A stretch of DNA of 32,703 nt from Gemmatimonadaceae bacterium (GTDB taxonomy: Bacteria; Gemmatimonadota; Gemmatimonadetes; Gemmatimonadales; Gemmatimonadaceae). The stretch is from assembly GCA_035606695.1 (NCBI GenBank), contig DATNEW010000038.1, positions 1 through 32,703 of the forward strand. Reading direction: 5' to 3'. Under the pieces are notes generated by a model. The model had not been told where the DNA came from. It did not search any database and was given only the letters and a program-made list of their open reading frames with translations. Shown here in pieces: positions 378 through 23,522 of this stretch; within the stretch, counting starts at the first letter, position 1; each line of letters begins with the position of its first letter. The position numbers were made by a program, and so were the translations under genes.

Positions 378-593
378 ACCACGGACGAACGTCGGACAAC
401 GGCGGACAGGCACGGAGACGGCGTTTGAAGTTCCGCGGTGTCATTCCGAGCGCGGCGAGGAATCTTCCGCCTCTGCAGAGTGACCGGCCCTCCGCGGCGG
501 ACGCAAGATCCCTCGCTCACGCTCGGGATGACTGGTGTCCCTGCAACGCCGTCTCTCTGCCGATCCGGGGCCGTCCGACGTTCGTCCGTGGTA
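377..593. repeat. Palindromic MITE-like intergenic element
   Basis: Bases 377-397 and 573-593 are a perfect 21-bp inverted repeat. Inside them the arms 440-466 and 505-532 are a second, imperfect inverted repeat, reading GTCATTCCGAGCG...AATCTT against AAGATCCCTCGC...GGGATGAC. The inner part is related to the repeat family in the pyrimidine operon (GTCATCC...GGATGAC). The element spans the gap between the pilin terminator and the hydrolase start. Open frames read through it but look like translated repeat, not protein. Confidence 0.75.
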
Positions 594-7208: not shown

Positions 7209-8339
7209 ATGGCTACACGTGCGGTCACGTTCACCGGCATCAAGTTCGAAAACCCGTTCCTGCTCTCCTCCGCCCCACCGACGGAGAGCGAGTCGAACAT
7301 CTTGCGCGCCTTCGACGCGGGCTGGGGCGGCGTGGTCGTGAAGACGATCGGCCTGCACCCCGTCGTGAACGTCGTCGGCGCGCGGACGAAATTCTTCCGC
7401 ACGACGCCCGACGACAATCAGGTGTCGATGAAGAAGCGCTCCGGTGCGGCGCTGCACGGCTCGTGGAATTGGGAGCTGATCTCCGACAAGAGCCTCGACT
7501 GGTGGGTGGCGCGCATTCGCCGGATCAAGGAAGTGCATCCGACCAAGGTGGTGATTGCGTCGATCATGGCCGGCTCCGGCAGCGACAAGGAGCTGCGCGC
7601 ATGGCAGACGCTCACCGAAGCCGTGCAGGACGCCGGCGCCGACGGCATCGAGACCAACTTCTCGTGTCCGCACATGGACCGCAAGGACATGGGCTCGAAC
7701 ATCGGCAAGAACACCGGGCTCTGCTCCGTCGTAACGGAGGCGGTGAAGGAAGTCGCCAAGATTCCGGTGTGGACGAAACTGACGCCGGCGACGAACGACA
7801 TCGTCGAAGAAGCCGGCGCATGCTTCCGCGGCGGAGCGGATGCGATCGTCTCGTCGAATACGTTCCCGTCGCTGCCCCTGATCGACCCCGAGACGCTCGA
7901 GTTCGAGATCAACGTCGACGGACTCGTGTCGAGTGGCGGTCTGGGTGGGCCGGCGATTCTCCCGATGTCGCTGGCGAACATGGCGCGCATGTGCCAGGCA
8001 TTCCCGGACCACGCGTTCTCGGGGATCGGCGGCGTGAGCGATTTCTCACAAGCGGCGTCGTACTTCCTGCTCGGGTGCGGCACCGTGCAAGTCTGCACGG
8101 CCGCGATGCTCGATTCCGCGGTCGGTCCGAATGTGATCAAGCGATTGAACGCCGGACTCGATCAGTTCCTCGAGCGGCATGGGTATTCGTGTATTGAGGA
8201 TTTCCGCGGGTCGCGCCGGGACAGAGTCGTGTTGCAGTCACAGATCCGGCGGCCGGACGGGGAGGGGTATCAGGGGGGCGAGGTGGTGGAGGGCTATGCG
8301 GCGCCGCTCACCGAGCAGCCGGCAACTTTGTCATCCTGA
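7209..8339 (+). CDS. preA: Dihydropyrimidine dehydrogenase, PreA-type catalytic subunit without ferredoxin domain
   Basis: This FMN-barrel protein (376 residues) reduces uracil/thymine to the dihydro form. It matches the dihydroorotate-dehydrogenase-like domain of dihydropyrimidine dehydrogenase: NPFLLSSAPPT at the start, NFSCPHMDRKDMG with catalytic Cys153, WTKLTPATNDI, GGADAIVSSNTF, GGLGGPAILPMSL and FSGIGGVSDF. E. coli PreA is longer and ends in two 4Fe-4S motifs. None is present here: the tail is RDRVVLQSQIRRPDGEGYQGG and more. No PreT partner lies in the window. The ATG at 7209 follows CGGAGG. The last codons and stop (TCA TCC TGA) belong to a family-1 repeat. It could also work on a related substrate, but the neighbours support pyrimidine reduction. 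Confidence 0.87.
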   Translation: MATRAVTFTGIKFENPFLLSSAPPTESESNILRAFDAGWGGVVVKTIGLHPVVNVVGARTKFFRTTPDDNQVSMKKRSGAALHGSWNWELISDKSLDWWVARIRRIKEVHPTKVVIASIMAGSGSDKELRAWQTLTEAVQDAGADGIETNFSCPHMDRKDMGSNIGKNTGLCSVVTEAVKEVAKIPVWTKLTPATNDIVEEAGACFRGGADAIVSSNTFPSLPLIDPETLEFEINVDGLVSSGGLGGPAILPMSLANMARMCQAFPDHAFSGIGGVSDFSQAASYFLLGCGTVQVCTAAMLDSAVGPNVIKRLNAGLDQFLERHGYSCIEDFRGSRRDRVVLQSQIRRPDGEGYQGGEVVEGYAAPLTEQPATLSS

Positions 8340-8460
8340 GGCGCGAAGCGGCGTGCGGCCGGCATCCTCGCGAGTCCTGGCGCAGGATGCAGCGTGCGGC
8401 CGTCATCCTCGCGAGTCCTGGCGCAGGATGCGGCGTGCGGCCGTCATCCTCGCGAGTCCT
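8331..8460. repeat. 41-bp tandem repeat, about 2.7 units, made of family-1 half sites
   Basis: Units start at 8351, 8392 and 8433. The first two are 41 bp each, built on GCGTGCGGCC, G(G/T)CATCCTCGCGAGTCC and TGGCGCAGGATGC. The third runs to 8460 and then continues into the left arm of the GIY-YIG unit. A further half site GTCATCCTGA at 8330-8339 supplies the preA stop codon. The array has no spacers and is not CRISPR-like. Confidence 0.8.
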
Positions 8461-8924
8461 CGCGCAGCGAGGGCGAGTCGAGGATCTGCTCTTGGGTCAC
8501 GCCGTTACTCAAACCATTCGTTCGCCAGATCGTCCCACGCCGGATTCGTACGTTCGATCAACGCGATCTTCTGCGCCCGCAACATGTGCTTGATCTGTTT
8601 TTCGCGGATGATGGCGAACATTGCTTCGTCGAAAACTTCGTAGTATACCAGTCGGTTGATCTTGTAACGCGATGTGAACGTGCAAAGACCATTTCGATGT
8701 TCCCACATGCGCCGCAGCAGATCATTGGAAATGCCGTTATACAAGTTTCGTGATTTGCTGGCGAGAATGTAAGCGTAGTATTGGCGCATGATCCGAACGC
8801 TATGACGCGTCTCGTGCGCGCCTGAAACCTTTTCATTGCGAGTCGGGGCAAAATGCGTGACCTCAAAGCAGATCCTCGACTTCCCTCCCCGTCGCTTCGC
8901 GAAGGGTCGGGTCGCGAGGATGAC
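8443..8924. mobile_element. Palindrome-bounded unit carrying a GIY-YIG nuclease gene
   Basis: The left arm (8443-8500) starts GTCATCCTCGCGA; the right arm (8857-8924) ends TCGCGAGGATGAC, its exact inverse. The inner ends of the arms, 8477-8500 and 8857-8880, are inverted repeats identical at 21 of 24 positions. The nuclease gene fills the middle, with its stop codon 4 bp from the left arm. Two shorter family members with the same arms but no gene lie at 10289-10419 and 13364-13475. The layout is like an autonomous unit and its gene-less derivatives. Mobility itself is inferred. Confidence 0.55.
8505..8789 (-). CDS. Single-domain GIY-YIG nuclease
   Basis: This 94-residue protein is one GIY-YIG domain and little else. 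YYAYILASKSRNLYNGISNDL at the start holds the two-strand motif (the second half reads YNG rather than YIG). LLRRMWEHRNG has the catalytic-region arginine, and RLVYYE and AIIREKQIKHM complete the family pattern. I start at the ATG at 8789 (MRQYYAYIL); the same frame is open far upstream, but that part is antisense to repeat and aminotransferase sequence. The gene runs against the pyrimidine operon and separates preA from the aminotransferase. It lies between the arms of a palindromic repeat. Small proteins of this class are widespread and of unclear role; DNA cutting linked to repeat spread is one possibility. Confidence 0.85.
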   Translation of the reverse strand: MRQYYAYILASKSRNLYNGISNDLLRRMWEHRNGLCTFTSRYKINRLVYYEVFDEAMFAIIREKQIKHMLRAQKIALIERTNPAWDDLANEWFE

Positions 8925-8957
8925 GGTCTCTCTTCTCCACCGCTGCGCGGGAGGACG

Positions 8958-10307
8958 ATGGTCATGCCTCCCTGCCCCCACACCCCCCGCCCCTACACCG
9001 GTCCCTCGCGCGACGAGATCATCGCGATGCGCCGGCACTACACCAACCCGACCATCTTCACGCTCTACGCCGAGCCGCTGCTGATCGTCGAGGGATTCAT
9101 GCAGTACCTGTTCGACGAGACCGGACGGCGCTATCTCGACTTCTTCGCCGGCATCGTCACCGTCTCCGTCGGCCACTGCCACCCGCACGTCGTGCGCGCG
9201 GTGCAGGAACAGTCGGCGACGCTGCAGCACACGACGACCATCTATCTGCACCCGAACTTCGCGGTGTTCGCCAAGCGGCTCGCGTCGAAGATGCCGAAGG
9301 GCTCCGGACTCGAGGTCACCTACTTCACGAACAGCGGCAGCGAGGCGAACGATCTCGCGGTGACCATGGCCCGTCTGCACACCGGCCACACCGACGTCAT
9401 CGCGGTGCGCAACGGCTATCACGGCGGCAGTCCGAGCGCGATGGGCCTCACGTCACACAACACGTGGAAGTTTCCCGTCGGCGGTGACGGACACGTGCAT
9501 CATGCCATCAATCCCGATCCGTACCGCAGCCCCTTCACCGGGACGCCTGAAGAGATCGCGACGAAGAGCGTTGCCGACATTCGCGACGTCATCCGCTACT
9601 CGACGCCCGGCAACGTCGCGGCGTTCATCGCCGAGCCAATTCAGGGCGTCGGTGGCGCGACGCGCGGGGCGCGCAACTATCTGCGCGAGGCATACGCCGT
9701 CGTTCGCGAGCACGGTGGGCTCTGCATCGCCGACGAAGTGCAGACGGGCTTCGGCCGCACCGGCGAACATTTCTGGGGTTTCGAGAACTTTGATGTCGTG
9801 CCGGATTTCGTCACGATGGCGAAGGGCATCGGCAACGGCGCTCCACTCGCCGCGGTAACGACGCGCATGGACATCGCGCGGACGCTCGCGCAGCGGCTGC
9901 ACTTCAATACGTATGGCGGTAATCCCGTCTCGATGGCCGCCGGCCTCGCGGTGCTCGACGTCATCGAGCGTGAGGAGATTCAACGCAACGCGCGCGAGCG
10001 CGGCGCGGAGGTGCGCGCGGGACTCGAGCGGCTGCAACGCGCGCATCCTCTGATCGGCGACGTTCGCGGCATGGGCTTGATGCTCGGCGTCGAGCTGGTG
10101 AGCGATCGGGCGGCGAAGACGCCGGCGAAGAAACAGGCGGTCGAGGTGCTCGAGGCGTCGCGCGAGCTCGGGCTCCTGCTCGGAAAGGGCGGGCTGGACG
10201 GAAACGTGCTGCGCATCAAGCCGCCGATGTGCATCACGGCGGCGGACGTGGAATTTGCGATTGATGTGTTGGATGAGGCGTTGCGGCGGTCATCCTCGCG
10301 ACCCTGA
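8958..10307 (+). CDS. Class III PLP aminotransferase, AGXT2-like (beta-alanine/beta-aminoisobutyrate aminotransferase)
   Basis: This 449-residue fold-type I aminotransferase would move the amino group of beta-alanine or beta-aminoisobutyrate to pyruvate or glyoxylate, giving the semialdehyde used by MmsA. Visible motifs: [32 protein letters not shown] (phosphate contacts), [22 protein letters not shown] with the pyridine-binding Asp, and MAKGIGNG with Lys289 for PLP. I start at ATG 8958 with GGGAGGA just before it; the frame is open further up but that part is family-1 repeat. The last six residues and the stop come from the next repeat copy. The acceptor (pyruvate or glyoxylate) cannot be told from sequence. 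Ornithine/acetylornithine-type use is less likely in this setting. Confidence 0.87.
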
Positions 10308-10419
10308 GCGTAGCGAAGGAGAGACGAGGATCTGCTCTCGAGTCACGTTGATTGGCCGATCCCGAAGGACGTTCATAGAAGCAGATCCTCGACTCGCCCG
10401 TCGGGCTCGCGAGGATGAC
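10289..10419. repeat. Palindromic repeat, family 1, between the aminotransferase and dihydropyrimidinase
   Basis: GTCATCCTCGCGA (10289-10301) pairs with TCGCGAGGATGAC (10407-10419). The left arm (10289-10346) is 58 bp, the same length as the left arm of the GIY-YIG unit, and ends in ACGAGGATCTGCTCTCGAGT. The inner right arm starts AGCAGATCCTCGAC at 10380. A 33-bp spacer replaces the nuclease gene. Its left edge forms the 3' end of the aminotransferase gene. Confidence 0.8.
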
Positions 10420-10433
10420 ACTCGGAGGGAAGA

Positions 10434-11906
10434 ATGCACTTCGACACCATCATCAAATCCGGCAACGTCGTCACCCCCGCCGGCACCTTCACCGGCGACG
10501 TCGGCATCACCGGCGAGAAGATCTCCGCGCTCGGCGCCGACCTCGGCACGGACGCCGGCAAGGTCATCGACGCCTCCGGCCACCATGTGATCCCCGGCGT
10601 GCTCGACGTCCACGTCCATCTCGAGCTGCCGTTCTGCGGCACCGTCTCCGCGGATGACTACCGCAGCGGCACCCGCGCCGGCGCACGCGGCGGCGTCACG
10701 ACGCTCATCGACTTCGCGATCCCGCCCGCCGGCGGCACGCTCAACGACGCCGCCGACCTCTGGATGAAGAAGGCGGAAGGCAAGTCGCTGATCGATTATA
10801 CATTTCATATATGCATCACTAAATATCAGGATCAGAAAGACCAGATTCGCGGCATGGTCGAGCGCGGCTTCCCGACCTTCAAGGAATTCATGATCTATGA
10901 ATCCGAGGGATGGCAGTCCGACGACCGCGCGCTCTTCGGCACGCTCGAGCGCATGCGCGAGTACGGCGCCATGCTGCTCGTTCATGCCGAATCGGCGCGC
11001 GTGCTCGACGAGCTGATCGCGCGCCATCACACACCCGAGCTCATGCGCGAATACGGCGCACGCCTGCACGCCATCACCCGCCCCAACTTCGTCGAGGCCG
11101 AGGCGATCCAGCGCGCCGTGCAGTGGAGTGAGGCGACCGGCGGACAGCTCTACATCGTCCATATGTCGACGGGCGAAGGCGCCGACATCATCCGCGCCGC
11201 GCAGACGCGCGGCGTGCCGGTCATCGCGGAAACGTGCGTGCAGTATCTCGTGCTCGACGATTCGGTATTCGCGCGCGACGACGGCCACCTGTTCGCCTGC
11301 TGTCCGCAGCTCAAGAAGCCGAAGGACGTCGAGCGCCTGTGGGCCGGCCTCAAGCACGGCGAAGTATCCGTCATCTCCACCGACACGTGCACGTTCACGC
11401 GCGAACAGAAGGCGATGTGGGAAGGCGACTGGACGAAGATTCCCATGGGCATGCCCGGCCTCGAAACACTCATGCCGCTCACCTACACGCGCGGCGTACT
11501 CGGCGGACGTCTCTCGCTCGAGGAGATGTGCATGAAGCTGAGCACGAATCCGGCGCGCATCATGGGGTTGTATCCGAGAAAGGGCGCGATTCAGATTGGG
11601 GCCGACGCGGATCTCGCGATCATTCATCCGACGAAGACGATGACCGTCCGTCCGTCGTCGATGGAGACGAATGCCGATTGGTCGCCGTACGAAGGGTGGA
11701 ATCTCGCCGGCTTCTCCCGCACCACGCTTTCGCGCGGCGACGTCATCGTCGACGACTACAAGGTCGTCGGTGAGGCGGGCCGAGGACGTTGGCTGCCGCG
11801 AACGAGCGCGGGTCTCGCGGCGCCGGCCGAGCGCAGTCGGATCGCCGCATCGGCGGCGGCGCTGCGCTTCGCCGCTGACGCCGAGCAGTTGGTGCAGGCG
11901 TCATGA
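10434..11906 (+). CDS. hydA: Dihydropyrimidinase
   Basis: This 490-residue amidohydrolase opens dihydrouracil/dihydrothymine to the N-carbamoyl amino acid. The two-metal site is visible: DVHVHLE (His60, His62), the carboxylated lysine in TFKEFM (Lys150), LVHAE (His184), IVHMS (His243) and the Asp in STDTCTF (Asp317). The length and the late NPARIMGLYPRKGAIQIGADADLAI segment fit the hydantoinase/dihydropyrimidinase family. GGAGGGAAG precedes the ATG. The gene ends in ATGA, overlapping the transporter start by 4 bp, so the two are translationally coupled. A D-hydantoinase would look alike, but the cluster supports dihydropyrimidinase. Confidence 0.93.
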   Translation: MHFDTIIKSGNVVTPAGTFTGDVGITGEKISALGADLGTDAGKVIDASGHHVIPGVLDVHVHLELPFCGTVSADDYRSGTRAGARGGVTTLIDFAIPPAGGTLNDAADLWMKKAEGKSLIDYTFHICITKYQDQKDQIRGMVERGFPTFKEFMIYESEGWQSDDRALFGTLERMREYGAMLLVHAESARVLDELIARHHTPELMREYGARLHAITRPNFVEAEAIQRAVQWSEATGGQLYIVHMSTGEGADIIRAAQTRGVPVIAETCVQYLVLDDSVFARDDGHLFACCPQLKKPKDVERLWAGLKHGEVSVISTDTCTFTREQKAMWEGDWTKIPMGMPGLETLMPLTYTRGVLGGRLSLEEMCMKLSTNPARIMGLYPRKGAIQIGADADLAIIHPTKTMTVRPSSMETNADWSPYEGWNLAGFSRTTLSRGDVIVDDYKVVGEAGRGRWLPRTSAGLAAPAERSRIAASAAALRFAADAEQLVQAS

Positions 11907-13414
11907 GCCGGCAGATCGAGCGGCCGGATGGTCGTGTCGAACTCGTGGACACCGCGCGCGTCGACGCGAGCCCGCTGTCGAATCACGATCTCGCGCCCGT
12001 GCCGCTCGGCGCCCGAGACTGGAGCACGTACAACTACGCGGCGCTGTGGATCAGCATGGCGCACTGCATTCCGACCTACATGCTCGCGTCTGGGCTGCTC
12101 GCCGCGGGCATGAGTTGGTCGCAGGCGATCATTACAATTCTCTTGGGGAATAGTATCGTTCTGATACCAATTCTCCTCAACTCGCATCCCGGCACCAAGT
12201 ACGGCATTCCGTTCCCCGTCTTCGCGCGCGCGTCGTACGGCACCATCGGCTCCAATCTCCCCGCGTTGATGCGCGCGCTCGTCGCGTGCGGATGGTTCGG
12301 CATTCAGGCGTGGATCGGCGGCGAGGCGCTGAACACGTTCTTCGGCGTCGTCGTTCCCGGATGGGAGCATCTCCTTCCCGGCAGCGTGGACGGACACACG
12401 ACAACGGCGTGGATCTCGTTCCTGCTCTTCTGGGGCATGAACGTGTGGGTCATCGTGCGCGGGATGGATCTCCTGCGCCGCGTTGAAAATTGGGCGGCGC
12501 CGTTCGTACTCGTCATGGCCGCGGTGCTCCTGGTGTGGGCGATTCGCGAAGCGCACGGTGTCGGTCCGTTGCTGCGCGATCACGGCAAGTTTCACAGTTT
12601 CGGCGAATTCCTGCCGGTGTTCGTTCCGTCGCTCACGGCGATGATCGGCTACTGGGCGACGCTCTCGCTCAACATGCCGGACTTCACGCGATTCGGCCGC
12701 AGCCAACGCGATCAGGCGCTCGGCCAGATCGTCGCGCTGCCGACGACGATGACGGTCTTCGCGGCGATGGGCGTGCTCATCACGAGCGCCACGGTGATCA
12801 TCTACGGCGAAGCGATCTGGGACCCGGTGAAGCTCGTCGCGAAGTTCCACGCGCCGTTGGTCGTCGCACTGTCGATGTTCACCGTCGTGATCGCGACGCT
12901 GGCCGTGAACATCGCCGCGAACGTCGTCTCGCCCGCGAACGATTTCGCGAACGTGTTTCCGAAGGCGATCAACTTTCGCCGCGGCGGATTGCTCACCGGC
13001 GTGCTCGGGATCGCGATGATGCCGTGGCGTCTCCTCGCCGATCCCTCGGGATACATCTTCAACTGGCTCCTCGGCTACTCGGGCGGTCTCGGCTCGATCG
13101 CCGGCGTGCTGATCGCGGACTACTGGCTCGTGCGGAAGACTCGGCTCGAGTTAGAGGATTTGTATCTTCCCGACGGCGTGTACCGCTACCACAATGGGTG
13201 GAACTGGAACGCCGTCGTCGCGACGATTCTGGGCTGCGCGCTCGCGTGGGGCGGGCTCGTGATTCCCGTGCTCAAGCCGTTGTATTCGTATGCGTGGTTC
13301 GTGGGGTTCATCGTGGCGGGAGGAGCGTATTACGCCACAAGTGTTCTCTTCTCGGCCGACATCGTCATCCTCGCGACCGAGCGGAGCGAGGGAGACGAGG
13401 ATCTGCTTTCGTGA
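11903..13414 (+). CDS. NCS1-family nucleobase:cation symporter
   Basis: This 503-residue protein has about twelve hydrophobic spans and the NCS1 signature: LGARDWSTYNYAALWISMAHCI near 33-54, LNSHPGTKYGIPFPVFARASYG, CGWFGIQAWIGGEALN and GYWATLSLNMPDFTRFGRSQ. NCS1 proteins carry uracil, allantoin, hydantoins or related rings with Na+ or H+. Its place between dihydropyrimidinase and beta-ureidopropionase suggests uracil/thymine or dihydropyrimidine uptake. The ATG overlaps the hydA stop (ATGA). About the last 16 residues (VILATERSEGDEDLLS) are encoded by a palindromic repeat, so the original C-terminus was probably replaced. Confidence 0.92.
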   Translation: MSRQIERPDGRVELVDTARVDASPLSNHDLAPVPLGARDWSTYNYAALWISMAHCIPTYMLASGLLAAGMSWSQAIITILLGNSIVLIPILLNSHPGTKYGIPFPVFARASYGTIGSNLPALMRALVACGWFGIQAWIGGEALNTFFGVVVPGWEHLLPGSVDGHTTTAWISFLLFWGMNVWVIVRGMDLLRRVENWAAPFVLVMAAVLLVWAIREAHGVGPLLRDHGKFHSFGEFLPVFVPSLTAMIGYWATLSLNMPDFTRFGRSQRDQALGQIVALPTTMTVFAAMGVLITSATVIIYGEAIWDPVKLVAKFHAPLVVALSMFTVVIATLAVNIAANVVSPANDFANVFPKAINFRRGGLLTGVLGIAMMPWRLLADPSGYIFNWLLGYSGGLGSIAGVLIADYWLVRKTRLELEDLYLPDGVYRYHNGWNWNAVVATILGCALAWGGLVIPVLKPLYSYAWFVGFIVAGGAYYATSVLFSADIVILATERSEGDEDLLS

Positions 13415-13475
13415 TCGCCGCTGGATAGTGTGACCCAAGAGCAGATCCTCGACTCGCTACGCTCGCGAGGATGAC
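13364..13475. repeat. Palindromic repeat, family 1, between the transporter and beta-ureidopropionase
   Basis: GTCATCCTCGCGA (13364-13376) pairs with TCGCGAGGATGAC (13463-13475). Bases 13430-13453 are identical, all 24, to the reverse complement of 8477-8500 in the GIY-YIG unit. Only a short spacer lies in the middle. The transporter reads into it and stops at 13414. The next gene's GGAG ribosome site starts 4 bp after it. Confidence 0.82.
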
Positions 13476-14375: not shown

Positions 14376-14484
14376 ACAACGACAAGATCAGACCAAATCG
14401 GACAAAATCTGTTGTTCCGTCTTCGGTGAAGCATTCTCGCGGGCTGGACAGATCCGGTCATATGTTGTCTGATCTTGTCGTCGT
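14376..14484. repeat. Imperfect palindromic element between convergent genes
   Basis: Bases 14376-14393 (ACAACGACAAGATCAGAC) and 14467-14484 (GTCTGATCTTGTCGTCGT) are inverted repeats matching at 17 of 18 positions, with weaker pairing further in. The arms are not related to family 1. It lies between the converging ends of the beta-ureidopropionase and ATPase genes, so it may also act as a two-way terminator; a run of A at 14366-14373 stands just before it. Confidence 0.65.
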
Positions 14485-19975: not shown

Positions 19976-19977
19976 TG

Positions 19978-20110
19978 CGCTGGGCGTTGGGCGCTGGGCG
20001 GTGGTCCTGAAGGGCGAAGGGCGACGGAGAACATTCCCGTCGCCCCTCGTTCGTTACGCCCATTCGCCCACACGTCCATACGCCCATACGCCCATACGCC
20101 CGCATCACCC
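19978..20110. repeat. Palindromic repeat, family 2, with CCCATACG tandem arms
   Basis: A hairpin GGGCGACGG (20019-20027)/CCGTCGCCC (20037-20045) is flanked on the left by GGGCGTT/GGGCGCT-type heptamers and on the right by repeated CGCCCATA units (about 20055-20106). The same hairpin core and heptamer arms recur at 23411-23522. It lies just after the TolC stop and before the adaptor, so it may weaken read-through between the two. Confidence 0.7.
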
Positions 20111-23410: not shown

Positions 23411-23522
23411 CGGTGGGCGGTGGGCGGTGGGCGCTGGGCGATGGGCGTGAACAGCAACGGGCGACGGAATCCTCTCCGTCGCCCGTTGCCGTTCCGCCCC
23501 GACGCCCCGACGCCCCGACGCC
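23411..23522. repeat. Palindromic repeat, family 2, between convergent genes
   Basis: A perfect 15-bp inverted repeat (GCAACGGGCGACGGA at 23454-23468 and its inverse at 23475-23489) is flanked by GGTGGGC-type heptamers on the left (23411-23449) and CGCCCCGA units on the right (about 23494-23522). It shares the hairpin core of 20019-20045. It ends directly at the stop codon of the TonB-type gene on the other strand and could terminate both transcripts. Confidence 0.75.

Follow-up and report, generated by a model that had tools for sequence, protein, structure and literature searches.

Ssn (site-specific single-stranded nuclease) is reportedly a widespread family of GIY-YIG nucleases that cut single-stranded DNA at genomic repeats and, in meningococci, affect transformation (Chenal et al., Nat Commun 2025). 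GIY-YIG enzymes are hydrolases.

A class of palindromic repeats, the CGTC REPs, bears on the locus described here. In Di Nocera et al. 2013 (PMC3733652) these REPs are described as carrying an unpaired CGTC (or TGTC/CCTC) at one end, a stem of 8–9 bp that starts from complementary AT, a loop of 4–5 nt and a tail that is mostly CCA; they occur in many copies, mainly as inverted dimers with GTC outward, and include Neisseria dRS3 and Rickettsia RPE-4 and RPE-6. According to the same survey they ‘apparently lack a dedicated transposase’. GTAG-type REPs are spread by RAYTs (PMC3116915, PMC3733652). Our literature search found no paper linking GIY-YIG with REPs.

The DNA analysed, called the window below, is a stretch of 32,703 nt, contig 38 of a 5.9-Mb Gemmatimonadaceae genome. 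An earlier note, made from the letters of the window, had singled out a GIY-YIG gene packed between the arms of a palindromic repeat, with gene-less relatives nearby. The features are as follows.

440..532, unstranded: REP dimer of the TCCGA/CCCGA classes (the classes of the contig 15 nuclease), inside another repeat
8331..8442, + strand: degenerate REP fragments in a 41-bp tandem array (repeat family D3) adjoining the nuclease unit
8443..8924 (482 bp), unstranded: unit of REP, GIY-YIG gene and REP, with GTC at each outer end
8443..8489, + strand: REP 3′ of the nuclease gene, GTC-ATCCTCG..CGAGGAT-CTGC
8490..8506, + strand: inner-end sequence TCTTGGGTCACGCCGTT, also in the spacers of gene-less REP dimers
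8505..8789, − strand: gene of a single-domain GIY-YIG nuclease, 94 aa (PF01541, alignments, AlphaFold2, Foldseek)
8851..8867, − strand: inner-end sequence TTTGAGGTCACGCATTT, related to the opposite inner end TCTTGGGTCACGCCGTT
8868..8924, − strand: REP 5′ of the nuclease gene
10289..10419, unstranded: gene-less REP dimer, 45-bp spacer
13364..13475, unstranded: gene-less REP dimer with a 34-bp spacer; a genome of the same genus lacks a REP in the corresponding gene interval

The arms 8443-8500 and 8857-8924 are inverted copies, as had been claimed: their local alignment score is 66, while the maximum in 1000 shuffles was 30. The nuclease coding sequence fills 285 of the 356 bp that separate them and is the only recognised gene within the unit. 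As either ‘arm’ alone is a full hairpin, that is, a REP, we describe the unit as REP-gene-REP. CGTC stands at both outer ends, the tag being GTC and not GTAG; the stem starts with AT (ATCCTCG/CGAGGAT), the tail is CTGC, and the interior is long and variable and forms a hairpin of its own with a variable inner stem. The outer ends of homologous units elsewhere fall at the same point as in the window unit.

The open reading frame matches PF01541 with E-value 6.7e-10 as a single GIY-YIG domain, in agreement with the one-domain enzyme described earlier. Residues Y7, Y17, R27, E63 and N82, which we take to be the GIY-YIG active site, are invariant in alignments of 28 relatives and intact in the window protein. 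An AlphaFold2 model (pLDDT 92.8) found its best Foldseek matches in UPF0213 and SLX1; the nearest solved structures are UPF0213 proteins (1zg2, 1ywl), equal to the window protein in fold and length. Searches of the window protein against NCBIfam and PADLOC gave no match, and PADLOC matched a few relatives weakly. A homologue from Neisseria gonorrhoeae aligns over the whole domain with 44% identity; we assume it to be identical with the published Ssn protein. Its gene is located inside an array of GTCATTCCCGCG..GGGAATC repeats. In three loci (L031, L040, L049) the 3′ end of the nuclease reading frame runs into the downstream REP, the protein ending in ..ADPSLRSG or similar. On plasmid p1 of Planktothrix agardhii (L218) a member of this nuclease gene family, accompanied by its REPs, has an MmeI-type restriction-modification gene on one side and DISARM drmA on the other.

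We counted REPs in the window's own genome by pattern matching. The strict pattern GTCATCCTCGCGA-N5..35-CGAGGATCTGC has 25 exact copies and none in the reversed control, and a looser REP pattern has 149 copies; the gene-less copies reported at 10289-10419 and 13364-13475 are real, and their relatives exceed those that had been noted. The 24-nt match reported between the nuclease unit and the second dimer extends to 28 nt, a perfect inverted match of 8473-8500 with 13430-13457. We extracted 11 gene-less dimers with a modal spacer of 23 bp, the GTC-outward polarity of all 11 following from the construction of the search. Compared with the inner ends of the nuclease unit (TCTTGGGTCACGCCGTT), their spacer ends agree at a mean of 9.4 of 20 positions versus 5.8 in shuffles, and ∼17 nt of internal sequence is common to the dimers and the unit. 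A search of Rfam found no credible RNA family at the repeats.

The relation of an autonomous element to its derivatives, suggested in the earlier note, is borne out by this common internal sequence and by a REP number that tracks the nuclease in two families (see below). ‘MITE-like’ describes the dimers well in that ends and sub-terminal sequence are kept; the strict sense of the term does not apply, since no target-site duplication was detected at the nuclease unit or at own-genome dimers and a GIY-YIG enzyme is a hydrolase, not a transposase. A classical MITE transposon, with neither target-site duplication nor transposase in the unit, is not supported. Likewise, the comparison drawn earlier with REP sequences and their RAYT enzymes holds as a good analogy, although the repeats are of CGTC type, not GTAG type, and the genome has no Y1 transposase. 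That RAYTs do spread GTAG-type REPs (PMC3116915, PMC3733652) gives some ground for supposing that a RAYT or other transposase spreads the REPs here as well, the GIY-YIG gene being a passenger. We find this scarcely credible: a PF01797 search of this genome gave no match to a Y1/RAYT transposase, a search of the family's 118 genomes found no Y1_Tnp in 10 of the 14 that are rich in REPs, and CGTC repeats are described as having no association with transposase genes in Di Nocera 2013 (PMC3733652). Absent from this genome and most REP-rich ones among the 118, RAYT as the mobiliser is largely refuted.

The same genome carries a second short GIY-YIG gene, a close relative of the window nuclease, on contig 15 between inverted REPs. 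These REPs belong to the related CCCGA and TCCGA classes, whose stem differs from that of the REPs at the window nuclease. About 100 REPs of CCCGA/CCTGA classes are present in the genome; therefore two nucleases and two REP sets coexist in it. The two further GIY-YIG genes of the genome are longer-frame, and at L029, the sole one of these two with flanks read, a REP pair is absent.

Other repeats were seen in the window. Positions 376-594 belong to a second, unrelated palindromic family of ∼215-bp elements with inverted ends of ∼49 nt (TTACCACGGACGAACGTCGGACAACGGCGG...), which has ∼105 BLAST matches in the genome, many of them paired 170–240 bp apart. The nine other copies that were read mostly have a central hairpin of the ACCCTCGGGA..TCCCGAGGGT type; in the window copy the centre is the REP dimer 440-532 instead, as if the hairpin had been replaced. 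A 37-nt inverted repeat (ACAACGACAAGATCAGACCAAATCGGACAAAATCTGT) at 14376-14484 has five partial copies elsewhere in the genome, and two related G-rich intergenic runs (GGGCGCTGGGCG...GGGCGACGGA) at 19977-20028 and 23417-23468, 3.4 kb apart, have an inverted partner at 23466-23507.

Within the window's family a homologue of the nuclease was found in 19 of 118 genomes, scattered in 11 of 35 genera, and most of the 19 have REP-like hairpins close by. A scan of named genomes, built on a four-row alignment, returned 80 close relatives from phyla that include Proteobacteria, Chloroflexi, Acidobacteria, Bacteroidetes, Cyanobacteria, Firmicutes, Planctomycetes, Verrucomicrobia and candidate phyla. The question raised earlier, whether such genes lie between such arms more often than by chance, was addressed in 68 loci with full flanks by a strict detector (a GTC tag, an exact 5-bp stem starting with AT, then C, facing inward), with random positions in the same loci as control. 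Hairpins were present on both sides of 26 genes (38%, versus 0.1% in the control) and on at least one side of 49 (72%, versus 3.5%). Of 21 misses read by eye, the majority had either an imperfect stem or a variant hairpin such as GTCGTCC..GGACCC. With a relaxed hairpin detector the contrast was far smaller (44 of 68 loci on at least one side, versus 42% in the control), and because it was too noisy the strict detector was chosen. Both arms of one gene had the same three variable stem bases (the core) in 16 of the 26 genes, with 3.8 expected. In the relatives the base preceding GTC is T in 77 cases, C in 20 and another base in 8, and after AT they divide into CT and CC.

The association is specific to this clade of GIY-YIG genes. 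We compared 20 close with 20 distant short GIY-YIG genes of the same genome set: at least one REP was present at all 20 close genes and at 1 of 20 distant ones, and REPs on both sides at 15 and 0, respectively, so that arms around other GIY-YIG genes with no relation to local repeats, which the earlier note had named as evidence against itself, were not what we found. These results, together with the reversed-genome, shuffle and random-position controls, refute the idea that the arms arose by chance or local duplication with no relation to the nuclease, the probability of which we put at practically nil.

Repeat type is predicted by the protein tree. Across a tree of 66 proteins we counted 7 changes of the base after ATC (19 expected), 10 of stem bases 4–5 (21 expected) and 31 of the stem core (43 expected), with P<0.0005 in each case. 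Host relatedness may contribute in part to this coupling, but in three genomes of the window's family the proteins fall among proteobacterial ones and the REPs are similar too. Since the REPs are intergenic and form strong hairpins, one might think of RNA-level hairpins (terminators or mRNA stabilisers), at which nuclease genes land as safe or fragile intergenic sites. We consider this very unlikely, for it leaves unexplained the fixed outward orientation of GTC, the coupling of the protein lineage to stem and tail, and why other GIY-YIG genes in these genomes are without REPs.

The number of REPs follows the presence of the nuclease, and the independence of the two that would have told against the earlier note was not seen. 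In the 118 genomes of the family the median number of REPs of the counted class is 36 with the nuclease and 1 without; at least 20 REPs were found in 11 of 19 nuclease-positive versus 3 of 99 nuclease-negative genomes (Fisher p 2e-8), and a within-genus permutation over these genomes gave p 0.001. The link recurs in a second family of the same order (p 2e-5; within-genus p 0.014). There are exceptions: five genomes (G020, G041, G046, G203, G236) have many REPs and no nuclease, and some nuclease-positive genomes have few REPs of the counted class. The correlation leaves the direction free, as REP-rich genomes could simply retain the nuclease.

With respect to movement, we compared pairs of nuclease genes at unrelated positions for the ends of their common DNA. 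In L116/L125 and L090/L094, for which flanking DNA was available, homology ends 0–4 bp from the REP outer ends on both sides; in L097/L126, L066/L094 and pairs in G136 and G137 it stops within 0–4 bp on one side, the other end being inside or short of the REP. Homology of L060/L085 extends 9–14 bp past the REPs, L113/L118 had no usable REP call, and the other homology blocks overrun or fall short of the REP end by 9–63 bp overall.

Loci with and without the repeat, a comparison proposed earlier, are found on Sphingobium plasmids. The fnrL-fixJ interval contains REP-gene-REP in one clade (support 100/100); in two siblings it contains just a palindrome that joins the outer half of one REP to that of the other, and in one sibling and both outgroups neither unit nor palindrome. 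Parsimony favours a gain of the REP-bordered unit. This fused palindrome could represent the target before insertion, or could have resulted from deletion across an 8-bp direct repeat. At L226 (Sphingobium TomTYG73) the nuclease gene carries a one-base deletion (alignment A3, column 342), and it is unannotated; this is a decaying copy, the REPs around it being still intact.

In a same-genus genome, G042, REP, nuclease and aminotransferase are all missing from the place at which the window carries them, and there is no REP at the position of the 13364 dimer; with a divergence of 15–20% this comparison is supporting only. The class-III aminotransferase gene (8955-10307) has the nuclease unit on one side and a REP dimer on the other; in G042, which is without it, the flanking genes adjoin in the same operon. 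The segment 8955-10307 is a possible REP-bounded cassette. An NCS1-type transporter gene (11903-13414), beside a REP dimer, has 50% amino acid identity to the syntenic G042 gene, its neighbours having 85–92%, and has likely been replaced.

The main rival keeps recognition of the REPs by the nuclease and denies that it spreads them: the enzyme would recognise and cut the REPs, the repeats would be cellular marks (for DNA uptake or recombination control), and the gene would be gained and lost by inter-repeat recombination. A meningococcal homologue reportedly acts on repeated sites and modulates transformation, the gonococcal gene sits inside its own repeat array, and the fused palindrome of the two Sphingobium plasmids is what inter-repeat recombination or slippage would leave. 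Passive marks, however, would not predict a REP number that rises with the nuclease even inside genera, nor an internal sequence common to dimers and unit, and we regard this explanation as rather unlikely.

We think it probable, though well short of certain, that the locus is a selfish unit bounded by REPs, whose Ssn-like nuclease recognises and cuts them and which host repair spreads together with gene-less dimers. The nuclease would recognise a hairpin (fixed GTC-AT ... AT-C, with a lineage-specific stem) that flanks the nuclease gene and also occurs dispersed over the genome. It may cut or nick the REP, most likely when exposed as a single-stranded hairpin, a state in which it could be met at replication forks or during uptake. 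Such cleavage would be the cause of spread: host repair or recombination across repeats would copy the REP-gene-REP unit to new intergenic sites, and gene-less REP-spacer-REP dimers would be copied in trans to such sites. As GIY-YIG enzymes are hydrolases, the host would have to provide the chemistry of insertion. The association, its orientation, its specificity for one clade, the link of protein lineage to repeat type, a REP number that follows the nuclease and the gain of a REP-bordered unit are direct results; cleavage, the form of the DNA that is cut and the step from cleavage to spread are inferred, as is the suggestion of the earlier note that the nuclease may cut at, or spread, these palindromes. 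The same pairing in many phyla suggests that such nucleases act on, and probably help spread, CGTC-type repeats. More tentatively, and somewhat less likely than not, dispersed GTC-AT...AT-C repeats across bacteria (CGTC REPs, dRS3, RPE-4/6) might be mainly non-autonomous derivatives of REP-bounded GIY-YIG units; these would then form a broad class of selfish element, enzyme and hairpin co-diversifying, and a hydrolytic nuclease with host repair taking the place of a transposase.

These data assign a partner enzyme to the CGTC REPs: it is specific, is found in many phyla, co-evolves with the repeat and correlates with its dose. If the nuclease drives the spread, a hydrolase of 94 residues with its own presumed recognition site on either side would be acting as an unusual replicator, and the varied cognate hairpins would give a catalogue of predicted specificities.

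The window repeats share with CGTC REPs, as characterised in PMC3733652, the C before GTC at both outer ends, the stem from AT, inverted dimers and high copy number; they differ in the long variable inner hairpin in place of a 4–5 nt loop, in the tail CTGC instead of CCA, and in the dedicated enzyme linked to them. As in REPINs and RAYTs (PMC3116915, PMC2817692), inverted REP pairs form the dispersed unit, one enzyme gene is flanked by the same REPs, and few enzymes accompany many REPs; RAYTs are Y1/HuH tyrosine transposases of GTAG-tagged REPs, while here a GIY-YIG nuclease goes with CGTC/TGTC-tagged REPs. A classical TIR transposon with MITEs is resembled in that the dimers keep the ends and sub-terminal sequence of the nuclease unit; unlike it, the unit has no target-site duplication and no DDE or other transposase. 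With GIY-YIG homing endonucleases, free-standing or intronic, the unit has in common a mobile nuclease gene flanked by a putative recognition sequence, and copying via repair would resemble homing; in contrast to them there is no intron or single fixed target gene, the putative target being a dispersed hairpin. Distant short GIY-YIG genes, presumably UPF0213-type, differ from the window family in being REP-flanked in just 1 of 20 cases.

Ssn is similar in that it, too, is a small enzyme of one GIY-YIG domain whose cognate sequences recur in the genome, and the window protein, with its intact active-site residues and homology to the Neisseria protein, is Ssn-like. The window system differs in the CCTCG stem class, the CTGC tail and a cleavage that is putative; its gene is strictly framed by one REP per side, and gene-less derivatives exist. 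If Ssn is as Chenal et al. reportedly describe it, substrate recognition here is already of the Ssn kind, and the repeat-bounded mobile unit with its gene-less derivatives may be the new part.
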